From Rubrivivax sp. (GTDB lineage: Bacteria; Pseudomonadota; Gammaproteobacteria; Burkholderiales; Burkholderiaceae_C): a stretch of DNA of 64,000 nt. Position numbers and translations under genes: made by a program. The number at the start of each line of letters is the position of its first letter. The first letter of the stretch is position 1. Below the pieces are notes generated by a model. The model did no database searches. It was not told where the DNA came from and saw only the letters and a program-made list of their open reading frames with translations. The stretch lies in the NCBI GenBank assembly GCA_030653385.1, contig JAURZM010000020.1, positions 163,237 to 227,236 on the forward strand, read 5' to 3'. Positions 898 to 26,110 of the stretch are shown in pieces.

Positions 898-1670
898 AGC
901 TGCAACTGCTGTCCGACCTGCACCTGGAAACCGAAACCTTCGACCCCGAGCCGGCGGCGGGCGCCGAGGTGCTGGTGCTGGCAGGTGACATCGACGCCAA
1001 CTGGGTCGGCTACGAACGGTTTGCCGGCTGGCCGGTGCCGGTGTGGGTGGTGGCCGGCAACCACGAATACGACGGCCGCGACTTCGACCGGGCCACCGAC
1101 GGTCTGCGCGAGCTGTGCGCGCGGCTGGGTTTCACCTTTCTGGAAAGCGAATCGCTGCTGCACACCGCGGCCGATGGCCAGCGTCTGCGTGTGCTGGGCA
1201 CCACACGCTGGAGCGACTTTGACCTGCTCGGCCCCGCGATGCGCGCTCGCGCGGAAAGGGCCGCCGCCTACTTCCTGCGCCTGATGGACACCACCCGCGG
1301 CGGCGCTCCCTTCGACGCCACGGCCGTTCGCGAAGAAGGCCTGAGCAGCCGCCAGTGGCTGGAACAGGCACTGCACCGCCCACCCCAGGGCCGCTGGGAC
1401 AAGACGCTGGTCATCACCCACTTTGCGCCCAGCCTGAAAAGTGCCGATCCGCGTTACGGCCAGCAGCCTGGCACGGCCAGCTTCTGCAACGCCGACGACG
1501 ACCTGATCCCGCATGCCGACCTCTGGCTGCACGGGCATCTGCACTGCCGTCATGACTACCAGGTGCTTCGCCCGGGCAAGCTGCCATCGCGGGTGGTGTG
1601 CAACGCCCGTGGCCTGGTGCACAAGGGCGAGCACGAAGGTTTCGATGCCGGCCTGCTGATCGATGTCTGA
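894..1670 (+). CDS. metallophosphoesterase, calcineurin-like
   Basis: 258 residues. The dinuclear-metal phosphoesterase motifs appear in order: SDLHLE (Asp8, His10), AGDID (Gly31-Asp32), GNHE (residues 55-58), a THFAPS histidine, and a terminal HGHLH. The length fits small cytoplasmic calcineurin-like phosphoesterases, which hydrolyse phosphomono- or diesters; the substrate cannot be read from sequence. I chose the GTG at 894 because it overlaps the upstream TGA and puts the first metal-binding strand (KLQLLSDLH) at the N-terminus, as is usual. No signal peptide is present. It probably forms a two-gene unit with the DUF2332-type gene. Confidence 0.85.
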   Translation: MKLQLLSDLHLETETFDPEPAAGAEVLVLAGDIDANWVGYERFAGWPVPVWVVAGNHEYDGRDFDRATDGLRELCARLGFTFLESESLLHTAADGQRLRVLGTTRWSDFDLLGPAMRARAERAAAYFLRLMDTTRGGAPFDATAVREEGLSSRQWLEQALHRPPQGRWDKTLVITHFAPSLKSADPRYGQQPGTASFCNADDDLIPHADLWLHGHLHCRHDYQVLRPGKLPSRVVCNARGLVHKGEHEGFDAGLLIDV

Positions 1671-1754
1671 GCTGCGTCAAGCCTGTGCGCCTGTCGGCTC
1701 TGCGACACTCAACCCGTGGGCCAACGCGGTTCACGCGACTCAGGAGAACGACCG

Positions 1755-2177
1755 ATGAAGATCCTCGTGGCCGTCGATGGCAGCCCCTACACCAAGAAGA
1801 TGCTCGCCTACCTGGCGGCACATGACGAGTGGCTGGGCCCGCTCCACCAGTACACCGTCGTGCATGCCGTGCCCGTGGTGCCGTCACGCGCCGCAGCCGT
1901 GATGGAGCGGGAAACGCTGAAGGCCTACTACCAGGACACCGCCGACAAGGTCTTCAAGCCCATCCGCACCTTCTTCTCCAAGCAGGGCCTGAACGCCCAG
2001 TTCGTGGCCAAGACCGGCAACGCGGCCGAAGTCATTGCCGAAGCCGCGCGCAAGGGCAACTACGACCTGCTGGTGCTGGGCTCACATGGTCACGGCACGC
2101 TGACCAATCTGGTGATGGGCTCGGTGGCCACCAAGGTGCTGGCCAACTGCAGCACACCGGCTCTGCTCGTCCGTTAG
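1755..2177 (+). CDS. universal stress protein, UspA family
   Basis: 140 residues, the usual length of a single-domain Usp. It starts MKILVAVDGS, the typical first beta strand. The ATP-binding signature G-2x-G-9x-G-S is complete (Gly109, Gly112, Gly122-Ser123), which suggests a nucleotide-binding Usp. The start is supported by an AGGAGA ribosome binding site about 7 bases upstream. The gene is separated from the upstream phosphoesterase by 84 bases and is followed by an inverted repeat before the convergent TetR gene. Usp proteins are cytoplasmic stress-protective factors; the specific trigger is unknown. Confidence 0.9.
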   Translation: MKILVAVDGSPYTKKMLAYLAAHDEWLGPLHQYTVVHAVPVVPSRAAAVMERETLKAYYQDTADKVFKPIRTFFSKQGLNAQFVAKTGNAAEVIAEAARKGNYDLLVLGSHGHGTLTNLVMGSVATKVLANCSTPALLVR

Positions 2178-2200
2178 AAGGGCTAGAGCCCCGGAACGGG

Positions 2201-2218
2201 AACCGGCTCGCGCCGGTT
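2201..2218 (+). terminator. inverted repeat between convergent genes
   Basis: Perfect 7-bp arms AACCGGC / GCCGGTT with a 4-base loop, lying between the uspA-like stop (2177) and the stop of the convergent TetR gene (2219). There is no long T run on either strand, so it may be a weak or bidirectional transcription end. Confidence 0.4.
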
Positions 2219-2830
2219 TCAGCGCGTGGCCGACAGGCCTTGCCAGCAGGTGGTGAGCACCAGGTCGACGATCTGCGCGTCGCTGTAGTTGCCACCGGCC
2301 TTCAGGAAAGCCGGCACCGGGTCGCAGGCACGGGCGTAGATGGTGTACAGCACCACCTCGGGTGGCAAGGCGGGGTTGATGTCACCGTCGGCCTGGGCCT
2401 GCACGATCCACGCGCCAAGCACGTCGCTGACACGCATGATGGCGTCCAGGTAGGCCTTGTTGGCCATCAGTTCGGCGCGCAAGCTGGAGTTCTGCGAAGG
2501 CACGGTGGGCATTTCGCCGGACAACAGCACTTCGAGTGCCCAGCGGGTGATGGCGGTCAGGCGTTCGCGTGCCGAGACGTCAACGCGTGCCGCCTGCTGG
2601 TCCACCAAGGCCTGGGTGCGTTCCATCAGCCTCACCATGGCCGCGGTGGCCAGCGCTTCCTTGGACGGGAAGTGTTTGTACAGGCTGGCCTTGGCGATGC
2701 CCACGTCGGCGGCCACTTCGTCGACCGTCATCAGGTCGAAACCCTTGTCGGCCAGCAGGCGGTTGACCGAGGCAATGATGGCGTCCTCCCGGACGCGGAG
2801 CACCTGCTCCTTGAAGGACAAACGTGACAT
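2219..2830 (-). CDS. TetR/AcrR family transcriptional regulator
   Basis: 203 residues. The N-terminal TetR helix-turn-helix spans about residues 30-55 (TVDEVAADVGIAKASLYKHF, with the diagnostic SLYKHFPSKEAL). The C-terminal half is a helical ligand-binding domain whose ligand cannot be told. The length is typical. The target is unclear: the neighbours are a convergent universal stress gene and, upstream on the same strand, a short hypothetical ORF; no efflux pump or degradative operon is adjacent. Autoregulation from the 2831-2898 gap is possible, but I see no clear operator there. Confidence 0.9.
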   Translation of the reverse strand: MSRLSFKEQVLRVREDAIIASVNRLLADKGFDLMTVDEVAADVGIAKASLYKHFPSKEALATAAMVRLMERTQALVDQQAARVDVSARERLTAITRWALEVLLSGEMPTVPSQNSSLRAELMANKAYLDAIMRVSDVLGAWIVQAQADGDINPALPPEVVLYTIYARACDPVPAFLKAGGNYSDAQIVDLVLTTCWQGLSATR

Positions 2831-2898
2831 ACCCGGATTCTAGTCGGCGCCGTCGCCTGCTGAACGTGCCGGTCGCGACTTGAACGCGCCGGTGTGCG

Positions 2899-3108
2899 TC
2901 AGGTGCCGCGCTTGCGGCCTGCCGTCAGGCGCTGCATCCAGCCGGGTTGCCGTGCCACGGTGCTCGCGGGTGCGGGCGCGGCTTGCAGCTCGTGCAGGCT
3001 CATGTCCAGGCCATAGGCGGTGCCCAGGTCGGCGGGGTCGGCCTGCGCCGGTGCGACCGGCGTGCGCCAGCCCGAGAACCAGCGGGGGGATGCTGTGGCT
3101 TTGTCCAT
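2899..3108 (-). CDS. small hypothetical protein
   Basis: 69 residues from an ATG at 3108, preceded by a GAGAGAG purine stretch that could be a ribosome binding site. The protein is basic at its C-terminus, with a central AYGLDMSLHEL segment and no membrane segment or recognised domain. A longer frame opens upstream (to 3225) but has no better start. I recall short proteins with a similar GLDMSL segment in Comamonadaceae, but cannot verify homology. It could be non-coding, since high GC favours chance ORFs. Confidence 0.45.
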   Translation of the reverse strand: MDKATASPRWFSGWRTPVAPAQADPADLGTAYGLDMSLHELQAAPAPASTVARQPGWMQRLTAGRKRGT

Positions 3109-3253
3109 GGGCGGCTCTCTCGGTGGGGGACGGTGGGCAGGCGGCTGGTGTGCGTTGGTAAGGAGTGTCACTTGGTCACACGCCGGGTGCTCAACGAACA
3201 GCAAGGCCTCCGTGTGCCAAATCACGGCACCGGAAGATGGCGGTGCGCGTGAC

Positions 3254-3259
3254 TACAAT
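3254..3259 (+). promoter_or_regulatory. possible -10 element (TACAAT)
   Basis: TACAAT 30 bases before the Hsp70-family ATG, in an ACTACAATCGCG context that resembles betaproteobacterial start-site regions. No convincing -35 box sits 16-18 bases upstream, so this is a weak call. Confidence 0.35.
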
Positions 3260-3288
3260 CGCGCCCCTTTTTCGCCACAAGGCAAGGC

Positions 3289-4599
3289 ATGGCTGATCAC
3301 AAGGGTGCCACGGGCTTTGTTGCCATCGACTTCGGTACTTCCAATTCGGCGGTGGCTCTGCCACGTGCCGAAGGGGGTGTGCGTCTGGTGGAACTGGAGC
3401 TCGGCCAGCCCACCATGCCCACCGCGGTGTTCTACCGCGCCGACACGCCGCCGCAGCAACTCGACGCCGAGCGCCTGTACGGCAGGGCCGCGGTGGCGGC
3501 GTATGTCGAGGGTGTCGACGGCCGCCTGATGCGGTCGATGAAAAGCATCCTGGGCTCGAACCTGCTGGACCAGAGCACCGACATCGGCGGCGGCCGCGCC
3601 ATCAAGTACCGCGATGTCGTGGTCGGCTACCTGCGCCACCTGAAAGCCCGCGCGGAAGCCGAAGCCGGCCATGCCGTGAGCCGTGCGGTGATGGGCCGGC
3701 CGGTGTTTTTTGTCGACGACGAACCTGCACGTGACGCCCAGGCCCAAGCTGCGCTGGCCGCGGCGGCGCACGCGGTGGGGTTCACCGAGCTGCACTTCCA
3801 GTACGAACCCATTGCCGCGGCGCTGGACTACGAAAGCCAGGTCACGACCGAATCGCTGGTGCTGGTGGCCGACATCGGCGGCGGCACTTCGGACTTTTCG
3901 CTCGTGCGCGTGGGCCCGGCCCGCCGTGGCCGCGCCGAGCGGCGCGACGACATCCTGGCCAACCACGGTGTGCACCTGGCCGGCACCGACTTCGACCGCC
4001 ACGTCGAACTGGCCTGCATCCTGCCGCTGCTGGGCTACCGCACGCTGCGGCCGGCCAAGGCGGGCGAAACGCCGCGTGAAGTGCCCAGCGGCATCTACTT
4101 CGACCTGGCCACCTGGCACCTGATCAACACCGTCTACGCACCCGCACGGCTGGCCGAGATGCGCAGCATGAAAAGCTGGTACGCCGACCCGCGCCACCAC
4201 ACGCGCCTGCTCACGACGCTGGAAGAGAAGCTGGGCCACGCGCTGGCCGGCGCGGCCGAGCGCGCCAAGATCGATGTCGCGCTGCACGGCCGGGCCGATG
4301 TCGACCTGGGGCTGCTGGAAACCGGCCTGGCCACCACGCTGCTCGAACGCGATGCGTCAGCCGCGCTCGAATCCGACCTCGAACGCATCGTGCAGGCGGC
4401 GGCTGAAACCGCCCGCATGGCCGGGGTGTCGCCAGGTCAGGTGCAGGCCCTGTATTTCACCGGCGGCTCCACCGGCCTGACGCCGCTGGTGGACCGCATC
4501 TCGGCTTGTTTCCCCACCGCGCAGCAGGTGCGTGGCGACCGCTTTGCCAGCGTCGCGCAGGGCCTGGGCTGGCACGCGAGGGCGGTGTTCCCGACGTAG
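3289..4599 (+). CDS. yegD: Hsp70-family chaperone-like ATPase (YegD type)
   Basis: 436 residues, shorter than DnaK (about 640) and close to E. coli YegD. The actin/Hsp70 ATPase signatures are all present: phosphate-1 AIDFGTSNSAVA (12-23), EPIAAALDY (173-181), phosphate-2 DIGGGTSDF (195-203), and an adenosine motif FTGGSTGL near residue 400. No C-terminal substrate-binding domain or lid follows, so it is an ATPase-domain-only Hsp70 relative. The role of YegD proteins is poorly defined; a chaperone or autotransporter-assembly accessory role is speculative. It is monocistronic by spacing, with a possible TACAAT promoter element upstream. Confidence 0.88.
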   Translation: MADHKGATGFVAIDFGTSNSAVALPRAEGGVRLVELELGQPTMPTAVFYRADTPPQQLDAERLYGRAAVAAYVEGVDGRLMRSMKSILGSNLLDQSTDIGGGRAIKYRDVVVGYLRHLKARAEAEAGHAVSRAVMGRPVFFVDDEPARDAQAQAALAAAAHAVGFTELHFQYEPIAAALDYESQVTTESLVLVADIGGGTSDFSLVRVGPARRGRAERRDDILANHGVHLAGTDFDRHVELACILPLLGYRTLRPAKAGETPREVPSGIYFDLATWHLINTVYAPARLAEMRSMKSWYADPRHHTRLLTTLEEKLGHALAGAAERAKIDVALHGRADVDLGLLETGLATTLLERDASAALESDLERIVQAAAETARMAGVSPGQVQALYFTGGSTGLTPLVDRISACFPTAQQVRGDRFASVAQGLGWHARAVFPT

Positions 4600-17606: not shown

Positions 17607-20600
17607 TCATTCCCCCTTGGCGTAGCCGTTCAACACGTCCAGCAACTGCTGCGCTGCGGCCTTCTCTGCGCCCTTGGCCGTGCCCAGGTAAGGCAGCAGC
17701 ACCAGCGCCGCGTTGTCGGCCACCGAACCCCAGGTCTGCACCGACGACACACGGCCGTGCAGTTCGGCATAACGCGCCAGCAGGTCAGCCACCTGGGTGC
17801 CCAGTTGCTTGGCCGCCACCGCTTCGTAGACATCGATCTCCACCAGACCGGCATAACACCAGAAGTCAGGGTCCTGTTGTGACTTGTCCAGCAGGCTGCG
17901 GCGGGCGGCTGCCGTGGCGTCGGCGTCGAAGCCCTTCCAACTGCTGTTGTTGCGCTCGGCCACCAGTTCCAGCGCCATGCGGTTGAGTGCGGGGTAGAAG
18001 AGGTCGGGGGCTTCGGTGGCGCGTGCCATCTTTTCGGCCCGCGCGTAACACGTTGCTGCCATCACCAGCGCGGCCTGCTCGGCTGCGGCATCACCTTCGC
18101 GGCGCTCCAGCATCGCCAGCCGCTTGTAGGCCGAACCACACAGGCTGTGGCGTTCCAGTGTGGGTTGCAGCCCGGCCAGTGCCAGCAGGCTGCGCAGGGC
18201 GTTGCTGATTTCCTGCCGCGCCGCGGCCATGGCGGGCGTTCCCGGCTTGGCTTTCTGCGCCTTGCCCCAGGCACGGCGCGCCTGCAGGTTGCCCAGTTGT
18301 TCGTGGGCCTTCATCGACGCGCTGCCGTCATTGGCCTGCAGCGCCCTTTCGTACCAGCGGATGGCGCTGTCACGGTCACCACCTTCGGCATAGGCCAGGC
18401 CAAAGGCCTCGGCCACCGCGCCCATGCCACCCCACAGGTCGCCAAAGCGCGCTTCAAGGTGGCTGACTTTTTCGCGCTGCTCGACCTGATCGGCGTGCAT
18501 CCAGCGCACACGCACCGCCTGCTCTTCGAGCGCCAGCGCCAGGCCCAGCGGCGACGAGATGCCGTCGAATTCGTCGGTGTTGTGGCGCTGCACGACCATG
18601 TTGTCGTGCGGGCCGCGGCGGTAGACCCAGTCGGGGTCGCCATAGGCCTGGTAGGCGGCCCAGGTGTTGCTGTCGCGGTTGTCCTTCCACGCCGCTTCGC
18701 GTGCCAGCGCCACCGCGTCGATGAAGGGTTGGCGACCCAGGATGGCGCGGTAGAAGGTCTCGGCAAACACCTTGGCCGGCACGTCGTCCACGGCCCAGCC
18801 AGCGGCGATGACACAGCGTACGCCGATGGAGATCAGCGCGTCGGCGACGCCCATCGCAAACTCGGCGCGGTTGAAGTTGTCCTTGTAGGCCGTGCCGCCG
18901 CGCAGCGTCTGGTCGGCATCACGTGCGGCCAGGTGGCAGCAGTTGACGAACACCAGCTCGGGCACCGTGCGCATGGCGCGGATCTCGTGCGGGCCCAGGA
19001 AGGTGCCTTCGGACAGCACCACGCCACCCAGGTCCACCAGCTGACCCTTGTCGTCGCGTTTCACCGGCTCACCGTGGCCGGCGATGTGCACGATGCGGTA
19101 GTTCTGTTCGAACAGCGCGTTGATGATGGTCGTGGCGTCGTTGTCGTCGATCAGCGCCTTGACCCGTTCGGCCGCCAGGCCACCCGAGCCCAGCAGCGCG
19201 TCACGCACCGACTCGGCCTCGGCGCGCGCGCCGGGCAGCGACACGTACAGCTCCATGTCGACCTTGGGCTCGCCGATGACCAGCACGGCGTCATCGGACT
19301 TGGCGTCCTGCACATGCTGGCGGAAGTTCTCGGTCTGCAGCTTGCGCAGCAGCTTGGTGCGGATGGACCAGGGAATCTCGTCCTTCTGCTGCGGCTCGTC
19401 GCCGCGGGTGTCCAGCAGTTCCCAGGGGATGGCCGCGGTCTGGTCGTCCAGTTCCAGCACCATGCGGCTGGTGCCGGCGAGAAAGGGTTCCACCTCCACC
19501 GGCACCAGCAACTGGAACAGTGTGCGGCCCAGTTGCGGGTCGGTGTTGGCTTCGGTGCTGGCGCGCCGCACCAGTTCGCGCAGCAGCCGGCCCTGCGTGC
19601 TTTGTGCGTTGACTTCGGTGCGCGCCCGTTTGGTGTCGAGCCGGAAGGTGATGACGTTTTTGTCGCGACCGCCGGTGGCGGTGATGAAGTCGTAGTCGGT
19701 GCCCCGGTAGCCACTGTCCATCTGGCGCCGCAGCGGGCCCACGCCGCTGGTCACGGTGGGCGCCACATCGAATTCCTCGGGTGCCGAGCTGGCCAGCATC
19801 TGCAGGCCACGCCAGGCGTCGCTGGCCCGTTCCAGGTACAGCTCGACCAGCGTCAGCTCGCCCACCTGCGGCCAGCCCGCACGGGCCACGCTGGCCAGTC
19901 GCTGGTTGGCCTGGCGCACACCCAGCGCGATGGCACGCGCCGAGTTGCCACCCTGGAAGCCGGCACCGCCACTGCCCATCAGCGTGGCGGTCAGTGTCAG
20001 CGGCGCCTGAGGCTGCGGCGCGCTGCCCTGCGTGTGTGCAGGCAAGGAGCCTTCGGCCATGCGCTGCACCCAGGCCAGCACACCCTGGCGCACGGTGCGT
20101 GTCAGCTCACGTTCGGTGAGCTTGCCTTCTGCACCCAGGCCCACCACCACCACGCTGGCGGGCTGCGGCGCCTTCCAGGGGTTGTCGGGGTAGGCGCTGT
20201 CGTTGACAAACAACTGGTGCGAGCCCGGCTGGTCGGGGTACAGGCCTGCATCCAGCGCGTCCTGCATGGCACCCGACACGAGCTTGTTGATGACGTACTC
20301 GGTGCCCGAGAGTTGCAGCGCCCGCGAGTGGCCGACCATCAGCGTGCCACGCACAAAACTCAGGTTGCCGTTGAGCACGTTGACCTTCAGCGGCGGCGTG
20401 CCGCTGTGGTCGGCCGGACCGCTGGGCACCCCTGCCGATGCCTCCATCACCTGGCGTTCGGACCCTGCCGGCAGCGCGCTGGGGCGGGTCCGCGAAGGGC
20501 GGCTGCGCACGTGCACGATGGCCTTGGCCGCCGCGCCACCCCGTTGTGCACCTTCGACCTGCAGGCGCGGCAGCTTCTGCGTGTCGCCCTGGCTCAGCAG

Positions 20601-23207
20601 CTCGACATAGGCTTCGAAGGCCTTGCCCACGTCAGGCAGGCTGCCGTGTTCGCTGTCCACGGTCCAGGTGCGCACACCGGGCAACAATGCCTTGGCCAGC
20701 GGCACGCGGCCGTCGCCACCGTCGGTGGCGTTGAGGTACACAAAACCCTCGCTGCCCCATTCGTAGCCATCGGGCGTGAACTTGGCCTTGCCCACCACCA
20801 GCAGGATGTTGCTGGCATGGGCACGCAAGACGCCTCCGCGCTGCGGGTCGAGCTGGGCGTCGAGCTTTTCGCGCAGCGCACGGGCTTGGTTCAACACCTG
20901 CTGTGGCGGCACACCCCATTCGTAGGCCGCGTCGCCGGCCTCGCCGGCCGAGCGGTGCCACCAGTTGGCCTCTTGCACCGCCAGCAGATCGCGTCGCGCC
21001 AGGTCGGCCCAGGTTTCTTCGCGGTCCAGACCCAGCTTGACGTCGAGCAAATCGGCCTGCAGCTGGATGAAGCCGGGCATCTGCGCCATCAGCTGGCGTG
21101 CATGGCGGTTGCGCAGCGGGCTGCCGAAACTGGCCAGCGCATTGCCGAAGGTGTCGTCGCCGCTCAGGCACTGCATCGGCGCCCAAGAGCCGCCGTTGGG
21201 TGTGCCCAGCATCAGCAAACGTGCACCTTCGCGTTTCATCAAACGCTCGAAGGTCTTGGGCCGCACGATCTGCATCGTGCGTGTCAGCACGCCGCCCATG
21301 CTGTGCGCAATGATGCGCACCGGCTGGCCGCTGCCGCTGCGTGCATCCAGTTCACGTTCCACCGCGTCGGCCAGGCGATTGGCTTCTTCTTCGATGGGGC
21401 GCCGCCAGTCGAAGGCAAAAGGCAGCACGGCGTGGCTTTGCTGCAGGTGTTCGATCAGGTCGTCGTAGATCAGGCCGATGGGGCCGTCGGGTGTCACGCC
21501 GTCGACGCCGTCGGGCTGGTAGGCCAGTTTTTTCAGACCACCGACCAGCCGCAGGCTGAGCCAGATGCGCTTGTCGCCGGCCTTCAGGTGGCTGCCCAGG
21601 ATGCCCGGCAGCACAAACACCGCGGGCTTGTCGCTGGCCGGGCGGCCGTCGTCGCTGCTGCGTCGCGCGGCGCGCAGGCCGCTCGAGTCCTTGCCCGCCC
21701 ACGACAGCGGCCCGATGGTGCGAAAACCCGCTGGCGAAGTCTGCGTCAGCCCTTCGACCACGGCCTGCACCGTGCGCACGTTGGCGAAGTAGTTGAAGTG
21801 CGTGCTCTTGCCGCTCTGGTCCAGCAAGAAGGTGGCGCCGCCGCTGCGTGCTGCACCGCCGTACATGCTGCTGGTCTGCACGACGATGTCGTTGTCGGTC
21901 CAGTAGTAGGCGTCGGCCAGCAGCGTCTTGACCCAGCTGCCCACGCTGTCGCCCTGCAGGTCGCCGGCCACCACACGCAGGTCACCGGGAATGGGCTCTT
22001 CGTTGGCGTTCAGCCAGTCGACCAGCGGCGTGTCGGGGATCATGCTGGCCAGGCCCGGCAGCTTGGTGGCGTCGGCGCGGCAGCGCGCCACTTCGGTCAG
22101 GAAGTCCACCAGCGCCGGCACCACCGGCACACCGGCCAGTTCGATGGTCCAGCGCAGCACCGACAGGTAGGCGTCGAGCCGCTTGCTGGCCAGCAGCGTG
22201 CCGCGTGCCGGACAGGCCACACGCACCACCCGGTCGACCTGGATGCCCTTGGCCTTCACCGCCGCAGCCAGCGCCTTCAGCGCCTTGCGGGTGTCGTCGT
22301 GTTCGCTGCCGTCGAAAAAGGCGTAGTCGTCGTTGCCGATGGGCTGCTTGGACGCCATGCGGCCGCACACCACGGCCAGCACCTCGGCCACCAGGCCGCC
22401 GCGTGAGTGCGTCACCAGGTGCAGCCGCGCGCCCTGCGGCATCGCCTGCACCAGCGTCAAGGCGTTGCTGATGGGGCTGACGCCCACGGTGGGGTGGTCG
22501 AGTGCGTAGACGCGGTTGCCGTAGTGGGCAAACAGTTCATTGACCCGCGGCCGGTGCATCGCCCACAGCTTGCCGAAGGTGCTGAAGGTGTCGACGAAGG
22601 TGCCGTGGATCAGCACCAGCAGCGGCTGGTTCGGCGCGTCGGTCAGCGCCGGCAACTGCGTGCGCTTCAGGCCGCTGCCTTTCAACGCGCTCAGTGAATC
22701 GGCCTGCAGTTCGTAGACACCGGCTTCGACCTGGCCGTCGACCTTGGCCACCACCTTGTCGGCCACCCAGCCGACGGCCTTGTCCTTGACGAGGTCGGTG
22801 ATGACCTCGAAGGCCGCCAGCACCACGTTGCCAAGAAACCCCCCGCTGCGCGTGGGAGCCGCCTGCTCCAGGCCCTGCCAGCGCAGCTGTGCCGGCACCA
22901 CCACGTCGTCGCTGGCGGCGGGCGCCGAACTGCGCTTGACGGTGCCCTGCCCCAGCATCAGGTCGCGTGCCGTTTCGGGGTGCAGCAGCAACGCCGGGCC
23001 ACCGGCGATGCGCAGCAGCACCACGTCTTCGCCGGGCACCGCACTGACCCGCACACTTTCGCCGCCGGCACGCCGGCTGGACACCCGCACCGCGTCTTTC
23101 ACCCGCCCGGGCAAGCCGTTGTCGGCCGGTGCACCCGTTGCGGCGCTGCGGCTGACCTGGCGTTGGCCGGGCACGACAAAGGTGATGGCGGTGGGCTGGG
23201 TGGCCAT
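17607..23207 (-). CDS. giant protein: two alpha/beta-hydrolase domains plus CHAT protease
   Basis: 1866 residues from the ATG at 23207 (GGAGACA ribosome site). Domain order: N-terminal region (1-190); alpha/beta-hydrolase 1 with LIHGTFVDT (199-207) and THSRGG (candidate nucleophile Ser268); alpha/beta-hydrolase 2, LCAT/lipase-like, with LPGILGSH (533-540), AHSMGG (nucleophile Ser636), LGTPNGG (667-673) and a candidate His854 in DSEHG; a linker; and a pre-CHAT region ending IPWELLD (1260-1266). The CHAT caspase-like domain follows (about 1305-1530) with HIAGHGE (His1378) and VNCCHLA (Cys1424, or Cys1423). The last part is helical (1590-1866), TPR-like near 1600-1630. There is no signal peptide, so it is probably cytoplasmic. 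CHAT domains are cysteine proteases often used in defence or programmed death. The target and role of this combination are unknown. Confidence 0.88.
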   Translation of the reverse strand: MATQPTAITFVVPGQRQVSRSAATGAPADNGLPGRVKDAVRVSSRRAGGESVRVSAVPGEDVVLLRIAGGPALLLHPETARDLMLGQGTVKRSSAPAASDDVVVPAQLRWQGLEQAAPTRSGGFLGNVVLAAFEVITDLVKDKAVGWVADKVVAKVDGQVEAGVYELQADSLSALKGSGLKRTQLPALTDAPNQPLLVLIHGTFVDTFSTFGKLWAMHRPRVNELFAHYGNRVYALDHPTVGVSPISNALTLVQAMPQGARLHLVTHSRGGLVAEVLAVVCGRMASKQPIGNDDYAFFDGSEHDDTRKALKALAAAVKAKGIQVDRVVRVACPARGTLLASKRLDAYLSVLRWTIELAGVPVVPALVDFLTEVARCRADATKLPGLASMIPDTPLVDWLNANEEPIPGDLRVVAGDLQGDSVGSWVKTLLADAYYWTDNDIVVQTSSMYGGAARSGGATFLLDQSGKSTHFNYFANVRTVQAVVEGLTQTSPAGFRTIGPLSWAGKDSSGLRAARRSSDDGRPASDKPAVFVLPGILGSHLKAGDKRIWLSLRLVGGLKKLAYQPDGVDGVTPDGPIGLIYDDLIEHLQQSHAVLPFAFDWRRPIEEEANRLADAVERELDARSGSGQPVRIIAHSMGGVLTRTMQIVRPKTFERLMKREGARLLMLGTPNGGSWAPMQCLSGDDTFGNALASFGSPLRNRHARQLMAQMPGFIQLQADLLDVKLGLDREETWADLARRDLLAVQEANWWHRSAGEAGDAAYEWGVPPQQVLNQARALREKLDAQLDPQRGGVLRAHASNILLVVGKAKFTPDGYEWGSEGFVYLNATDGGDGRVPLAKALLPGVRTWTVDSEHGSLPDVGKAFEAYVELLSQGDTQKLPRLQVEGAQRGGAAAKAIVHVRSRPSRTRPSALPAGSERQVMEASAGVPSGPADHSGTPPLKVNVLNGNLSFVRGTLMVGHSRALQLSGTEYVINKLVSGAMQDALDAGLYPDQPGSHQLFVNDSAYPDNPWKAPQPASVVVVGLGAEGKLTERELTRTVRQGVLAWVQRMAEGSLPAHTQGSAPQPQAPLTLTATLMGSGGAGFQGGNSARAIALGVRQANQRLASVARAGWPQVGELTLVELYLERASDAWRGLQMLASSAPEEFDVAPTVTSGVGPLRRQMDSGYRGTDYDFITATGGRDKNVITFRLDTKRARTEVNAQSTQGRLLRELVRRASTEANTDPQLGRTLFQLLVPVEVEPFLAGTSRMVLELDDQTAAIPWELLDTRGDEPQQKDEIPWSIRTKLLRKLQTENFRQHVQDAKSDDAVLVIGEPKVDMELYVSLPGARAEAESVRDALLGSGGLAAERVKALIDDNDATTIINALFEQNYRIVHIAGHGEPVKRDDKGQLVDLGGVVLSEGTFLGPHEIRAMRTVPELVFVNCCHLAARDADQTLRGGTAYKDNFNRAEFAMGVADALISIGVRCVIAAGWAVDDVPAKVFAETFYRAILGRQPFIDAVALAREAAWKDNRDSNTWAAYQAYGDPDWVYRRGPHDNMVVQRHNTDEFDGISSPLGLALALEEQAVRVRWMHADQVEQREKVSHLEARFGDLWGGMGAVAEAFGLAYAEGGDRDSAIRWYERALQANDGSASMKAHEQLGNLQARRAWGKAQKAKPGTPAMAAARQEISNALRSLLALAGLQPTLERHSLCGSAYKRLAMLERREGDAAAEQAALVMAATCYARAEKMARATEAPDLFYPALNRMALELVAERNNSSWKGFDADATAAARRSLLDKSQQDPDFWCYAGLVEIDVYEAVAAKQLGTQVADLLARYAELHGRVSSVQTWGSVADNAALVLLPYLGTAKGAEKAAAQQLLDVLNGYAKGE

Positions 23208-23306
23208 GCGGCGTGTCTCCTGGCAGCTCTTGTCGGTGGGGACGGCGAGCATCCACGCAAAGCGCCCGCAGATCAAGCCGCGGCGTGGGGCGGCGGCAGC
23301 GCCGAC

Positions 23307-23965: not shown

Positions 23966-25660
23966 TCAGTTGGCGGTGCGCGACTGCTGCGCGTGCATCA
24001 GTTCGATGCGTTCGCGCCGCAAGGGCCGGCCGCTGCTGTCGTTGTCTTCGATCTCGATGGCCACCGGCATGCCCAGCTTGGGCGCGTAGTAGACGGTGCG
24101 GGTGAATGCCCCACCACCCGGCGCGCCCGTGGCCGGCGTCTGCCGGCTCTGGCCGCTGGTCTTGATGGGCAGCACCTCGAATTCGCCGGCGGGGGTTTCG
24201 ATCTGGCGCGTGCTGCCCACCTGTGCCGTGCCGCGCCATTCGATCTGCACCTCGCGCTGGTTGGGCAGCACACGCGTTTCCTTGAAGGCCACGGTGCGAC
24301 TTTCGCCCGGCTGTGGCCTGGCCCACCAGATTTCCTGCGCCGGTTCGTAGCTGTGGCGGGTGCCGTCTTCGTCACGCTGCTGCTTCAGGCGGCCCTGCGG
24401 GTCGAGCTGCCACTGGCCGCCGTTGGCCGACAGGTGGCCGTCGTTGCGCACCTCGTCGATGGACACCGTGTAGCTGGCCAGCAGTTCGTCCTTGCGCGTG
24501 TCCACACGCTGGTAGGACAAGGTGTCTCCTTCGGCGTGGCCGAAGCTGTTGGCGCGTGCCTGGAACACCGGCCGCTCACCCTGGCCTGGCGCTTGCGCGG
24601 TGCGACCGTCGGTGCCGGGGCGCAATGCGGCGGGCGCTGACGCGGCCGGGGCGGGTGTTGCGGCGGCGGTGGGCGCTGGCGTGACAACCGGTGCGGGTGC
24701 AGCAGCGGAAGCCGCAGCGGATGCAGCAGGCGCGGTGCCGGACGGTGTTGCGGGTGTCGTTGTGGCCGCCGCTGCGGCGCCCGGGTTTTCGAGCCGCACC
24801 GCATCGGCCAGGTGGTCCTTGTCGAAAGTTTCGCCGGCCAGGAAGGGTTGTGTCAGCCCGCCACTGCTGTCGGCCACCGCGAGCCGGATCGCACGCAGGG
24901 CTTCGGGCACGCTGATGCGCGGGGTGCCCAAGGCGTCGACCATCACACGGGCGAAGCGTGTGGCCACCGCTTCGCGCAAGTCCTTGGGCGCGCCGGGCGG
25001 CGGGGGCAGGCTCGGCACGTCTTGCAGCGCACCGGGTGCGTGGCCCAGCAGCACCATGGTGCCGGCGTTCACGCGCTGGCGCGCCAGACCCGGCGGCACC
25101 AGCCGTGCCAGCGCCGGGTGGCGGTAGGCGGCGTCCACCACCAGTGCACGCGCCGCGGTGGGGCCACCGGCCAGCGCGTCCAGGGTTTCCTGCAGCGGCA
25201 GGCCCACGGCGCGCAGCAGCGCCGCCGTGGCCGAGGGTTCCTGGAAGTCGTTGAGCGCCACGTCGCTGGGCAAAAGCAGGTTGCGACCGTCCACCTGCGC
25301 TGCCAGGCCGGTGTAGTAGATCAGGCCCACGCCGTCGGCACGCAGGCTGCTGCGAAACTGCTTCAGTGCAGCGCGCAGCGCGTGGGTGTCCAGGTCGTGG
25401 TGCAGCAGCACCTCGAAGCCGCCGGCACGCAGTGCGGCGGCAACGGCCTGGCTGTCACGGCGGGCCGAATCGAGCACCGGCCGCGAGCCCAGCGTGCCGA
25501 TGCCCACCACCAGGGCCAGGCGCTGGCGTGCGGCGCTGCTGCTTGCGGCTGCCGGTGGATGGGCCGCGGGGCCCGGCGCCTGCGCCCAGACGGGTAGCAG
25601 CCAGGCACACAGCAGCCCGAGTGCAACCCGCACCGCCACGGGGGCCAGCCTCCTTCGCAT
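23966..25660 (-). CDS. secreted caspase-fold protein without catalytic dyad
   Basis: 564 residues from the ATG at 25660 (an adjacent GTG at 25663 is possible). A signal peptide ends LLPVWAQA (about 28). Residues 47-280 follow the peptidase C14 layout: LALVVGIG, DSQAVAAALRAGGFEV, YYTGLAAQVDGRNLLLP, LVVDAAYRHP. The catalytic His of YYAGHG is Leu119, and the Cys of the DACR motif is Ala178, so it should be proteolytically dead. An Ala/Pro/Thr-rich linker (about 290-365) leads to a beta-rich C-terminal domain (370-564), possibly related to DUF3108-like periplasmic proteins. It is followed by rlpA with coupled spacing. A scaffold or sensor role in the periplasm is inference. Confidence 0.8.
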   Translation of the reverse strand: MRRRLAPVAVRVALGLLCAWLLPVWAQAPGPAAHPPAAASSSAARQRLALVVGIGTLGSRPVLDSARRDSQAVAAALRAGGFEVLLHHDLDTHALRAALKQFRSSLRADGVGLIYYTGLAAQVDGRNLLLPSDVALNDFQEPSATAALLRAVGLPLQETLDALAGGPTAARALVVDAAYRHPALARLVPPGLARQRVNAGTMVLLGHAPGALQDVPSLPPPPGAPKDLREAVATRFARVMVDALGTPRISVPEALRAIRLAVADSSGGLTQPFLAGETFDKDHLADAVRLENPGAAAAATTTPATPSGTAPAASAAASAAAPAPVVTPAPTAAATPAPAASAPAALRPGTDGRTAQAPGQGERPVFQARANSFGHAEGDTLSYQRVDTRKDELLASYTVSIDEVRNDGHLSANGGQWQLDPQGRLKQQRDEDGTRHSYEPAQEIWWARPQPGESRTVAFKETRVLPNQREVQIEWRGTAQVGSTRQIETPAGEFEVLPIKTSGQSRQTPATGAPGGGAFTRTVYYAPKLGMPVAIEIEDNDSSGRPLRRERIELMHAQQSRTAN

Positions 25661-25777
25661 CACCAAACACATCCCCTCAAGCACCACGCAAGGTCGAGGC
25701 CGGAAGAGTGTAGCCAGCGAAGCGGTCAGGGGTGACGGCGTGTTTCCCTGCCCTCCCTCAGGCTGACAGGGCGATCA

Positions 25778-25804: not shown

Positions 25805-26110
25805 TCACCGGGGGGGTGCCGATGCGGCCTGGGGCACCACGATCACCGTCGTGCCGGTGCCCGATTTGCCGGTGGCGCCCGTGGCGCCGTCGTAGCCCGT
25901 GCTGCCCGTTGCGCCAGTGGCACCCGTGGTGCCGGGGTTGCCTTGATTGCCTGTGCTGCCGGTGTTCCCGGTGTTCCCGGTTTCTCCCGGGGGGCCGGGC
26001 GGGCCGGGAACGGCCATGGGCGCCGGCGGCACGTTCACGACGGTGGGTCGGTCGCAGGCTTGCAGGCCCAGTGCCAGCAGTGGCATGGCCAGGTAGATGT
26101 AGCGGTTCAT
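25805..26110 (-). CDS. collagen-like lipoprotein
   Basis: 101 residues, ATG at 26110 behind AAGGA. A signal peptide with lipobox LQAC (Cys at about residue 19) predicts a lipid-anchored protein. Residues about 36-86 are 17 uninterrupted Gly-X-Y triplets, starting GPPGPPGET and continuing mostly with GNT, GST, GAT triplets, so a short triple helix is plausible. The Thr-rich Y positions replace hydroxyproline, as in many bacterial collagens. The C-terminal tail is hydrophobic then Pro/Ala-rich. It sits between the tRNA-Arg gene and the pseudo-caspase gene and ends in its own hairpin, so it is likely transcribed alone. Confidence 0.82.
   Translation of the reverse strand: MNRYIYLAMPLLALGLQACDRPTVVNVPPAPMAVPGPPGPPGETGNTGNTGSTGNQGNPGTTGATGATGSTGYDGATGATGKSGTGTTVIVVPQAASAPPR

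Follow-up and report, generated by a model that had tools for sequence, protein, structure and literature searches.

A fusion of two lipase-like hydrolases with macro-like, CHAT and TPR-S domains is genetically associated with caspase-fold genes and may act in bacterial immunity

A stretch of 64,000 nucleotides from Rubrivivax sp. (contig JAURZM010000020.1; hereafter, the window) encodes on its minus strand, at 17607..23207, a single protein of 1866 amino acids in which a first alpha/beta-hydrolase is followed by a phospholipase-like second hydrolase, a predicted macro-like domain, a CHAT protease and a TPR-S domain. Sequence, predicted fold and comparative genomics reveal the domains of this fusion and the conservation of their catalytic residues, and they associate the gene genetically with an orthocaspase-type C14 gene, whose separately encoded caspase-like product is probably the partner of the fusion. 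We propose that the fusion is an abortive-infection effector, the phospholipase activity of which would be set free or switched on by proteolysis once infection is signalled, and we regard this reading as having about an even chance of being correct.

The architecture of the fusion is not due to chance, since 1422 proteins match the window's protein at E<=1e-3 and all of the best 120 of these carry both DUF7379 and CHAT. The gene begins with the ATG at 23207 and ends with the stop codon at 17607-17609; the longest open reading frame (ORF) extends to a TTG at 23276, the plus strand of the same interval is not the gene, and the codon-position score of the ORF, a measure that rises with length, is the highest among the ORFs kept in the window scan. 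The protein belongs to the DUF7379, CHAT, TPR-S and LCAT-like families, with Pfam scores of 102.3 bits for DUF7379 (PF24096, cut-off 33), 98 bits for CHAT (PF12770, cut-off 24), 38.4 bits for TPR-S (PF20308, cut-off 27.6) and 24.6 bits for LCAT (cut-off 21), whereas NCBIfam returned a single match far below its cut-off. An earlier, sequence-only reading had described two lipase-like hydrolases and a CHAT protease in one chain and suggested a segment-by-segment profile search; the matches above include the CHAT, LCAT and DUF7379 families named there, and its motif positions proved exact (LIHGTF at 199, THSRGG giving S268, LPGILG at 533, AHSMGG giving S636, HIAGHGE giving H1378 and VNCCHLA giving C1423/C1424). 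The 19-residue hydropathy maximum is only 1.83 and lies at residue 1450 within CHAT, so that neither a signal peptide nor a membrane helix is apparent from hydropathy, no dedicated predictor having been run. The protein is accordingly predicted to be cytoplasmic, and its earlier description as one 1866-residue chain lacking a signal peptide agrees with both the gene and the hydropathy profile.

In the predicted model of residues 1-905, the N-terminal region (residues 1-189; 22641..23207, minus strand, as are all features of the fusion) is partly beta-rich and has no Pfam match. Hydrolase 1, the DUF7379 domain (residues ~190-490; 21738..22640), contains S268 (22404-22406) together with conserved D440 and H470. 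A basic linker (residues 495-527; 21627..21725), with a predicted local distance difference test (pLDDT) score <50 at 500-518 and a conserved R512 at 21672-21674, leads to hydrolase 2 (residues 526-877; 20577..21632), in which S636 (21300-21302) is accompanied by conserved D832 and H854. Hydrolase 2 has the profile, the predicted fold and the putative catalytic triad of the LCAT/lysosomal phospholipase A2 (LPLA2) type, and may hydrolyse phospholipids. A second basic linker, mostly of low pLDDT (residues 885-936; 20400..20555; conserved R889 at 20541-20543), precedes the macro-like domain (residues ~937-1142; 19782..20399), which is followed by the CHAT protease (residues 1226-1524; 18636..19532; H1378 at 19074-19076, C1424 at 18936-18938) and the TPR-S domain (residues 1548-1866; 17610..18566), which has the fold of the ASK1 central regulatory region. 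The sequence-only reading had suspected a sensor in the helical C-terminus, 'sensor' being part of the Pfam name of TPR-S, but could not name the domain, and it missed the macro-like domain. The latter has a predicted macro fold of the leucine-aminopeptidase N-domain/macroH2A kind and a PDB profile match at E 1.6e-5. Its M17_N profile match in the window protein is below the cut-off (E 0.069), and 12 of 35 macro-region sequences, the window's not among them, match M17_N at E<=0.01. The fold lists of the whole-half models were dominated by a few domains and thus provide hardly any test of hydrolase 1 or of the first 190 residues.

Conservation of the catalytic residues was assessed in two sets that share the window and 20 divergent loci, namely a 140-sequence set (the window, 119 listed homologues and the 20 divergent loci) and a full-length alignment of 67 sequences (the window and 66 frames from relatives' loci). 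In the larger set, H201, S268, H1378 and C1424 are present in 140/140 sequences and S636 in 139/140. In the full-length alignment, H1378, C1424, D832 and H854 are invariant (67/67), D440 and H470 occur in 66/67, H201 in 65/67, S636 in 65/67 (Gly in loci L098 and L174) and S268 in 64/67 (replaced by Gly in L174, within a broken stretch in L022 and lost to truncation in L019). Nearly all relatives thus possess a full Ser-Asp-His set in both hydrolases, the triad roles being assigned from motif and conservation. A consistent loss of the Cys/His pair or the serines among homologues, which had been named beforehand as evidence against the assignment, is not what these counts reveal, and together with the profile scores they uphold the picture of two competent-looking hydrolases joined to a CHAT protease. 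Locus L174 (genome G725) encodes a full-length protein with Gly in place of both nucleophile serines, while its CHAT dyad and the motifs of its adjacent caspase are intact.

The association with a caspase was examined at 71 loci of relatives, excluding the window, using a profile built from 9 of the 19 positive loci. A caspase-fold gene of the orthocaspase C14 type adjoins the fusion in 19 of the 71; all 19 lie on the same strand as the fusion and contain the motifs SGHG and D[SC]CHSG, and 18 are separated from it by <=120 nucleotides, measured between stop-to-stop frames. Co-occurrence was then counted in a sample of 200 genomes of the family at E<=4e-56 for the fusion or its core and E<=6.1e-14 for the caspase, the latter cut-off having been placed at a gap after the list was viewed, with 5 weaker fusion matches and 19 weaker caspase matches counted as absent. 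The caspase is found in 23 of 31 fusion/core genomes vs 3 of the 169 others (odds ratio 159, Fisher p 2e-20), and after removal of the 12 adjacent cases it is still found in 11/19 vs 3/169 (p 1.3e-10), both p-values being inflated by relatedness. One of these 11 genomes, G793, has its caspase ~8 kb from the fusion. In the window genome the two genes are unlinked. The caspase gene lies on another contig and is 64% identical to that of locus L159, the match includes one TAG about two codons before its end, as judged by ORF ends, and no CHAT gene was recognized by eye in the surrounding 19 kb. A natural empty site exists in genome G707, where the caspase gene lies between neighbours like those of L159 and both the fusion and the TIR gene of that locus are absent (L183 vs L159). 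Similarly, the fusion is absent from G828, where a shortened caspase gene lies between similar neighbours (L185 vs L170).

Genes with possible roles in defence or wall damage accompany some relatives as well. In L014, L083 and L159 the gene immediately after the fusion encodes a TIR protein, so that the three genes are arranged as caspase-fusion-TIR. Locus L093 encodes a GH108 lysozyme and two TIR proteins, one of which contains SLOG; the Rhizobium locus L152 also encodes a GH108 lysozyme, here with two TIR-nSTAND1-WD40 proteins. M15 peptidase genes adjoin the fusion in L085, L086, L087 and L096 and, by similarity, also in L088 and L166. An nSTAND1 gene is found two genes upstream in L149, and the corresponding position in L157 is taken by an AAA gene whose MoxR match falls below the cut-off. 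A second TPR-S protein is encoded near the fusion in L155, and an Azotobacter plasmid copy is near methyltransferase, restriction subunit S, Fic and nuclease genes. Many further loci have only ordinary metabolic neighbours. The suggestion that the fusion belongs to an immunity or death setting therefore holds for some relatives (caspase in 19/71, with TIR, SIR2, STAND or restriction-modification genes near a few), while no such setting is recognizable around the window copy.

The family is sparsely distributed, which we count in favour of the proposed immune role. Strong matches were found in 20 of 300 genomes sampled from the order (E<=8e-93; 24 at any E<=1e-3) and in 31 of the 200 sampled from the family (E<=4e-56, one of them a short form; 36 at any). 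When a divergent member was used as the query, 937 proteins were matched (best 120 listed), and 4 of 398 genomes of a phylum sample gave strong matches (39 at any). Among the names carried by relatives are Rubrivivax, Leptothrix, Roseateles, Paucibacter, Ideonella and Burkholderiales, the full architecture having been seen among the listed matches and the examined loci. Twelve plasmid records contain relatives; 10 of these records bear alphaproteobacterial genus names, and several are partial; in 3 of the 12, one place covers at least 80% of the query. Four of the 119 listed homologues have a C-terminal TIR-like extension: TIR_2 scores 29.6 bits in P0067 (cut-off 28) and 25.6 bits, below that cut-off, in P0121, and the extensions of P0055 and P0080 were judged by eye. 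Short macro-like + CHAT + TPR forms lacking the lipases also exist, as identified by Pfam in L152 and by length and alignment in L179 and L180, and a search with the L152 protein returned 205 proteins, with M17_N annotated in 8 of the best 120 listed.

Cleavage sites that could free hydrolase 2 may lie in the linkers around it. Low-confidence basic stretches flank this domain (500-518 and most of 885-935), basic residues making up 17% of linker 1 and 13% of linker 2 vs 10.6% of the whole protein. R889 is present in 133/140 and 63/67 sequences of the two sets, and R512 in 131/140 and 52/67. Metacaspase- and separase-type proteases cleave after Arg, and, given the conserved Arg in each basic linker, R512 and R889 are predicted as candidate release sites. 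For a motif test, linker 1 could be cut out of 49 and linker 2 out of 41 of the 67 sequences, the remainder being dropped as their anchors failed. RG occurs in linker 2 of 32/41 sequences vs 17.8 expected from shuffles and [AL]R[GASV] in linker 1 of 34/49 vs 23.3 expected, both excesses being inflated by relatedness, while AR[GASV] alone is not enriched in linker 1 (15/49 vs 17.0 expected).

Based upon these features, a sequence of events can be envisaged in which trigger, cleavage and toxicity are all inferred. Firstly, the macro-like domain and/or the TPR-S domain would receive a trigger, possibly an ADP-ribose-type nucleotide from a TIR enzyme, an idea that derives from analogy with the macro effectors of type II Thoeris. 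Secondly, the trigger would activate CHAT and/or the partner caspase. Thirdly, the basic linkers with conserved R512 and R889 would be cut on both sides of hydrolase 2. The freed LPLA2-like phospholipase might then attack the membrane of its own cell, and the lysozyme- or M15-type genes of some loci could add damage to the wall. Such a switch, leading from signal to protease to lipase release to membrane damage, fits the strict CHAT dyad and the linked or co-inherited second protease, and it also fits a nucleotide-receptor-like fold next to CHAT, a stress-kinase-like TPR region and a phospholipase-like domain between basic linkers. Neither the macro-like domain nor the caspase partner figured in the sequence-only reading, and both change the likely mechanism. 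In its most specific and rather doubtful form, the proposal is of an unnamed innate-immune system, in which the macro-CHAT-TPR-S portion would act as a receptor-protease for an ADP-ribose-type signal and, together with the orthocaspase, would cut the fusion's own basic linkers and free a PLA2-like killer domain. Such a two-protease cascade would unite signalling of the TIR type with caspase-like proteolysis and membrane lysis in one chain that has an ASK1-type regulatory domain. If the immune reading is right, three strategies described in separate systems, namely TIR nucleotide signals read by macro domains, caspase-like proteases and membrane-attacking lipases, are joined in one regulated chain. 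The fusion also puts a sensor domain of the ASK1 type into a bacterial protease-lipase protein, and it makes testable whether phospholipases become active when CHAT and caspase proteases excise them, which would parallel lytic cell death in animals. Nor is the family rare, as is evident from its 1422 related proteins and the DUF7379 and CHAT shared by the best 120 listed.

Several observations weigh against an immune effector of this kind. Among the scanned ORFs of the window there is no adjacent TIR, partner caspase or recognized defence gene. No caspase was found within the examined stretch of 52 of the 71 loci, among the 17 closest loci (L006-L022) an adjacent caspase occurs in L014 alone, and 8 of the 31 fusion/core genomes lack a caspase orthologue at the threshold used, quite apart from the inflation of the co-occurrence p-values by relatedness. 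TIR directly adjoins the fusion in three loci only. The macro-like domain belongs to the aminopeptidase N-domain type, and no classical ADP-ribose-binding motif was recognized in it. Conservation of the proposed release sites is incomplete in the full-length alignment, particularly for R512. PADLOC models, applied to the fusion protein and not to its neighbours, matched 0 families. No related locus was found in phage records, nor in viral contigs by a two-pattern profile scan whose short patterns make it weak; a mobile or prophage origin was set aside on these grounds, although plasmid relatives do exist. Finally, the chromosomal setting of the gene is fixed among the nearest relatives.

This last point bears upon the possibility that the fusion is a housekeeping or envelope-lipid enzyme of a Rubrivivax-like lineage, in which CHAT and TPR would regulate a phospholipase or acyl hydrolase under stress and immunity would play no part. 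Upstream of the window fusion are genes for an RlpA-like lipoprotein and a degenerate secreted C14-like protein, and downstream is a convergent SDR gene. Among the 17 closest loci, several of which are cut by contig ends, the RlpA-like gene is present in 13 and the convergent SDR gene in 13, and some have fatty-acid hydroxylase and PhoX genes farther along. Since this block is fixed in the closest relatives, the window copy is not in a recognizable defence island. The strong conservation of both lipase triads and the resemblance of the TPR-S fold to a stress-kinase region would also suit such an enzyme. However, a fixed housekeeping context, which had been named in advance as grounds for abandoning an immune role, holds only for the closest relatives: the neighbours of wider relatives vary and include some caspase, TIR, SIR2, STAND and restriction-modification genes, the gene is sparse in both samples (20/300 and 31/200), some relatives are on plasmids, and in one genus the fusion and TIR are missing from a matching site at which the caspase stays. 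We consider a housekeeping role unlikely.

A different immune effector is conceivable, in which the two proteases would be the killers, as in type IV Thoeris, and the hydrolases would be sensors, targeting modules or modifiers. The Gly residues at both serines in L174 and the absence of S636 in L098 indicate that lipase activity is not universal, which weakens the case for a phospholipase killer, whereas the CHAT dyad is retained in 67/67 sequences. The short forms lacking lipases point in the same direction, and that of L179 still has a caspase gene adjacent. Killing by the proteases nevertheless seems improbable to much the same degree as a housekeeping role. It is highly improbable that the fusion is a weapon against other bacteria, that is, a secreted lipase effector matured by CHAT: its fold is similar to that of Tle4, a type VI secretion effector, but its hydropathy suggests neither a signal peptide nor a membrane helix, no gene for secretion or immunity was recognized among the scanned neighbours, and the architecture is of the intracellular sensing type.

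When compared with known systems, the fusion appears to be a variant of known prokaryotic conflict systems. The literature searched, judged by titles and abstract openings and with subscription papers mostly outside it, contained no account of this architecture. ThsA macro domains bind ADP-ribose (ADPR) and imidazole adenine dinucleotide (IAD) (PMC11204291), while His-ADPR acts on a ThsA with transmembrane and macro domains and N7-cADPR activates the caspase-like protease of type IV Thoeris (PMC12847820). The fusion resembles type II Thoeris (TIR ThsB plus transmembrane-macro ThsA) and type IV Thoeris (TIR plus caspase-like protease) in the TIR genes beside a few relatives and in a macro-type domain or caspase-fold protease on the effector side (PMC11204291, PMC12847820). 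Unlike Thoeris, it joins macro-like, CHAT, two lipase and TPR-S domains in one chain with no apparent transmembrane domain, and no TIR adjoins the window copy as an operonic ThsB. In VMAP systems, an alpha/beta-hydrolase gene is invariably found next to the caspase domain (PMC7159879). The MoxR-vWA-VMAP ternary systems thus likewise pair a caspase-superfamily protease with an alpha/beta-hydrolase, but there the hydrolase is a separate neighbouring gene and the systems are defined by MoxR, vWA and VMAP (PMC7159879), whereas in the present protein protease and hydrolase are fused. None of these three genes was found among the 20 neighbouring window ORFs scanned (10706-31373). The same ORFs include no Cas7-11/gRAMP, and the window has no other ORF >800 amino acids except the antisense frame of the fusion. 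The fusion also differs from the Craspase TPR-CHAT protein Csx29, in which the TPR does not follow CHAT, by having its TPR after CHAT and by its fused lipases and macro-like domain. As the tested defining neighbours are missing, the fusion is not Thoeris, a VMAP ternary system or Craspase as these are defined. Separase, the cohesin-cleaving protease, has no lipases, whereas the fusion does; the fusion differs from lysosomal phospholipase A2 and LCAT in being predicted cytoplasmic, with its hydrolase embedded in a protease-sensor chain, and from the ASK1 central regulatory region in that its TPR-S has no kinase and is joined to CHAT.

Two groups of genes in the window genome were considered as partners and rejected. 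The C14-like protein at 23966-25687 (minus strand) is a secreted-looking protein of 573 amino acids that has the C14 fold without the catalytic His/Cys motifs (YYTGL and VVDAAY in their place) and travels with the RlpA synteny block; its N-terminus resembles a signal peptide, its His/Cys motifs are absent by eye, and the partner-caspase profile misses both it and its relatives in the loci. In same-block relatives, where it could be picked out, the second motif reads GAYR, ASYR, AAYR or AAFQ. Four other CHAT loci of the window genome (L001, L002, L003 and L005, each <4 kb) gave no match to the fusion protein at E<=1e-6, and three of them, viewed more widely (L145-L147), have secreted-type or sigma-factor-like neighbours by eye. 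This genome (6 Mb) contains 5 CHAT, 13 C14 and 8 TIR_2 matches, none of the last on the window's contig. A small lipoprotein-like ORF at 25805-26110 (minus strand) has, by eye, collagen-like Gly-X-Y repeats.

Among the relatives' loci, L101 encodes a second caspase-fold protein (1079-4066, minus strand; 995 amino acids, 30.1 bits) beside its caspase-fusion pair, and L169 has a SIR2_2-CHAT fusion of 835 amino acids directly downstream and an NNH1-NACHT gene upstream. Upstream of the Paracoccus plasmid copies is a protein of ~1090 amino acids (L150, 4691-7975; L151, 4282-7527) with N-terminal stretches that appear hydrophobic by eye; one of the two has an SBP_bac_3 match and the other none. For P0347, a relative of the short forms, precomputed Pfam lists PF03366 and PF20305, which have YEATS-type names, with CHAT.
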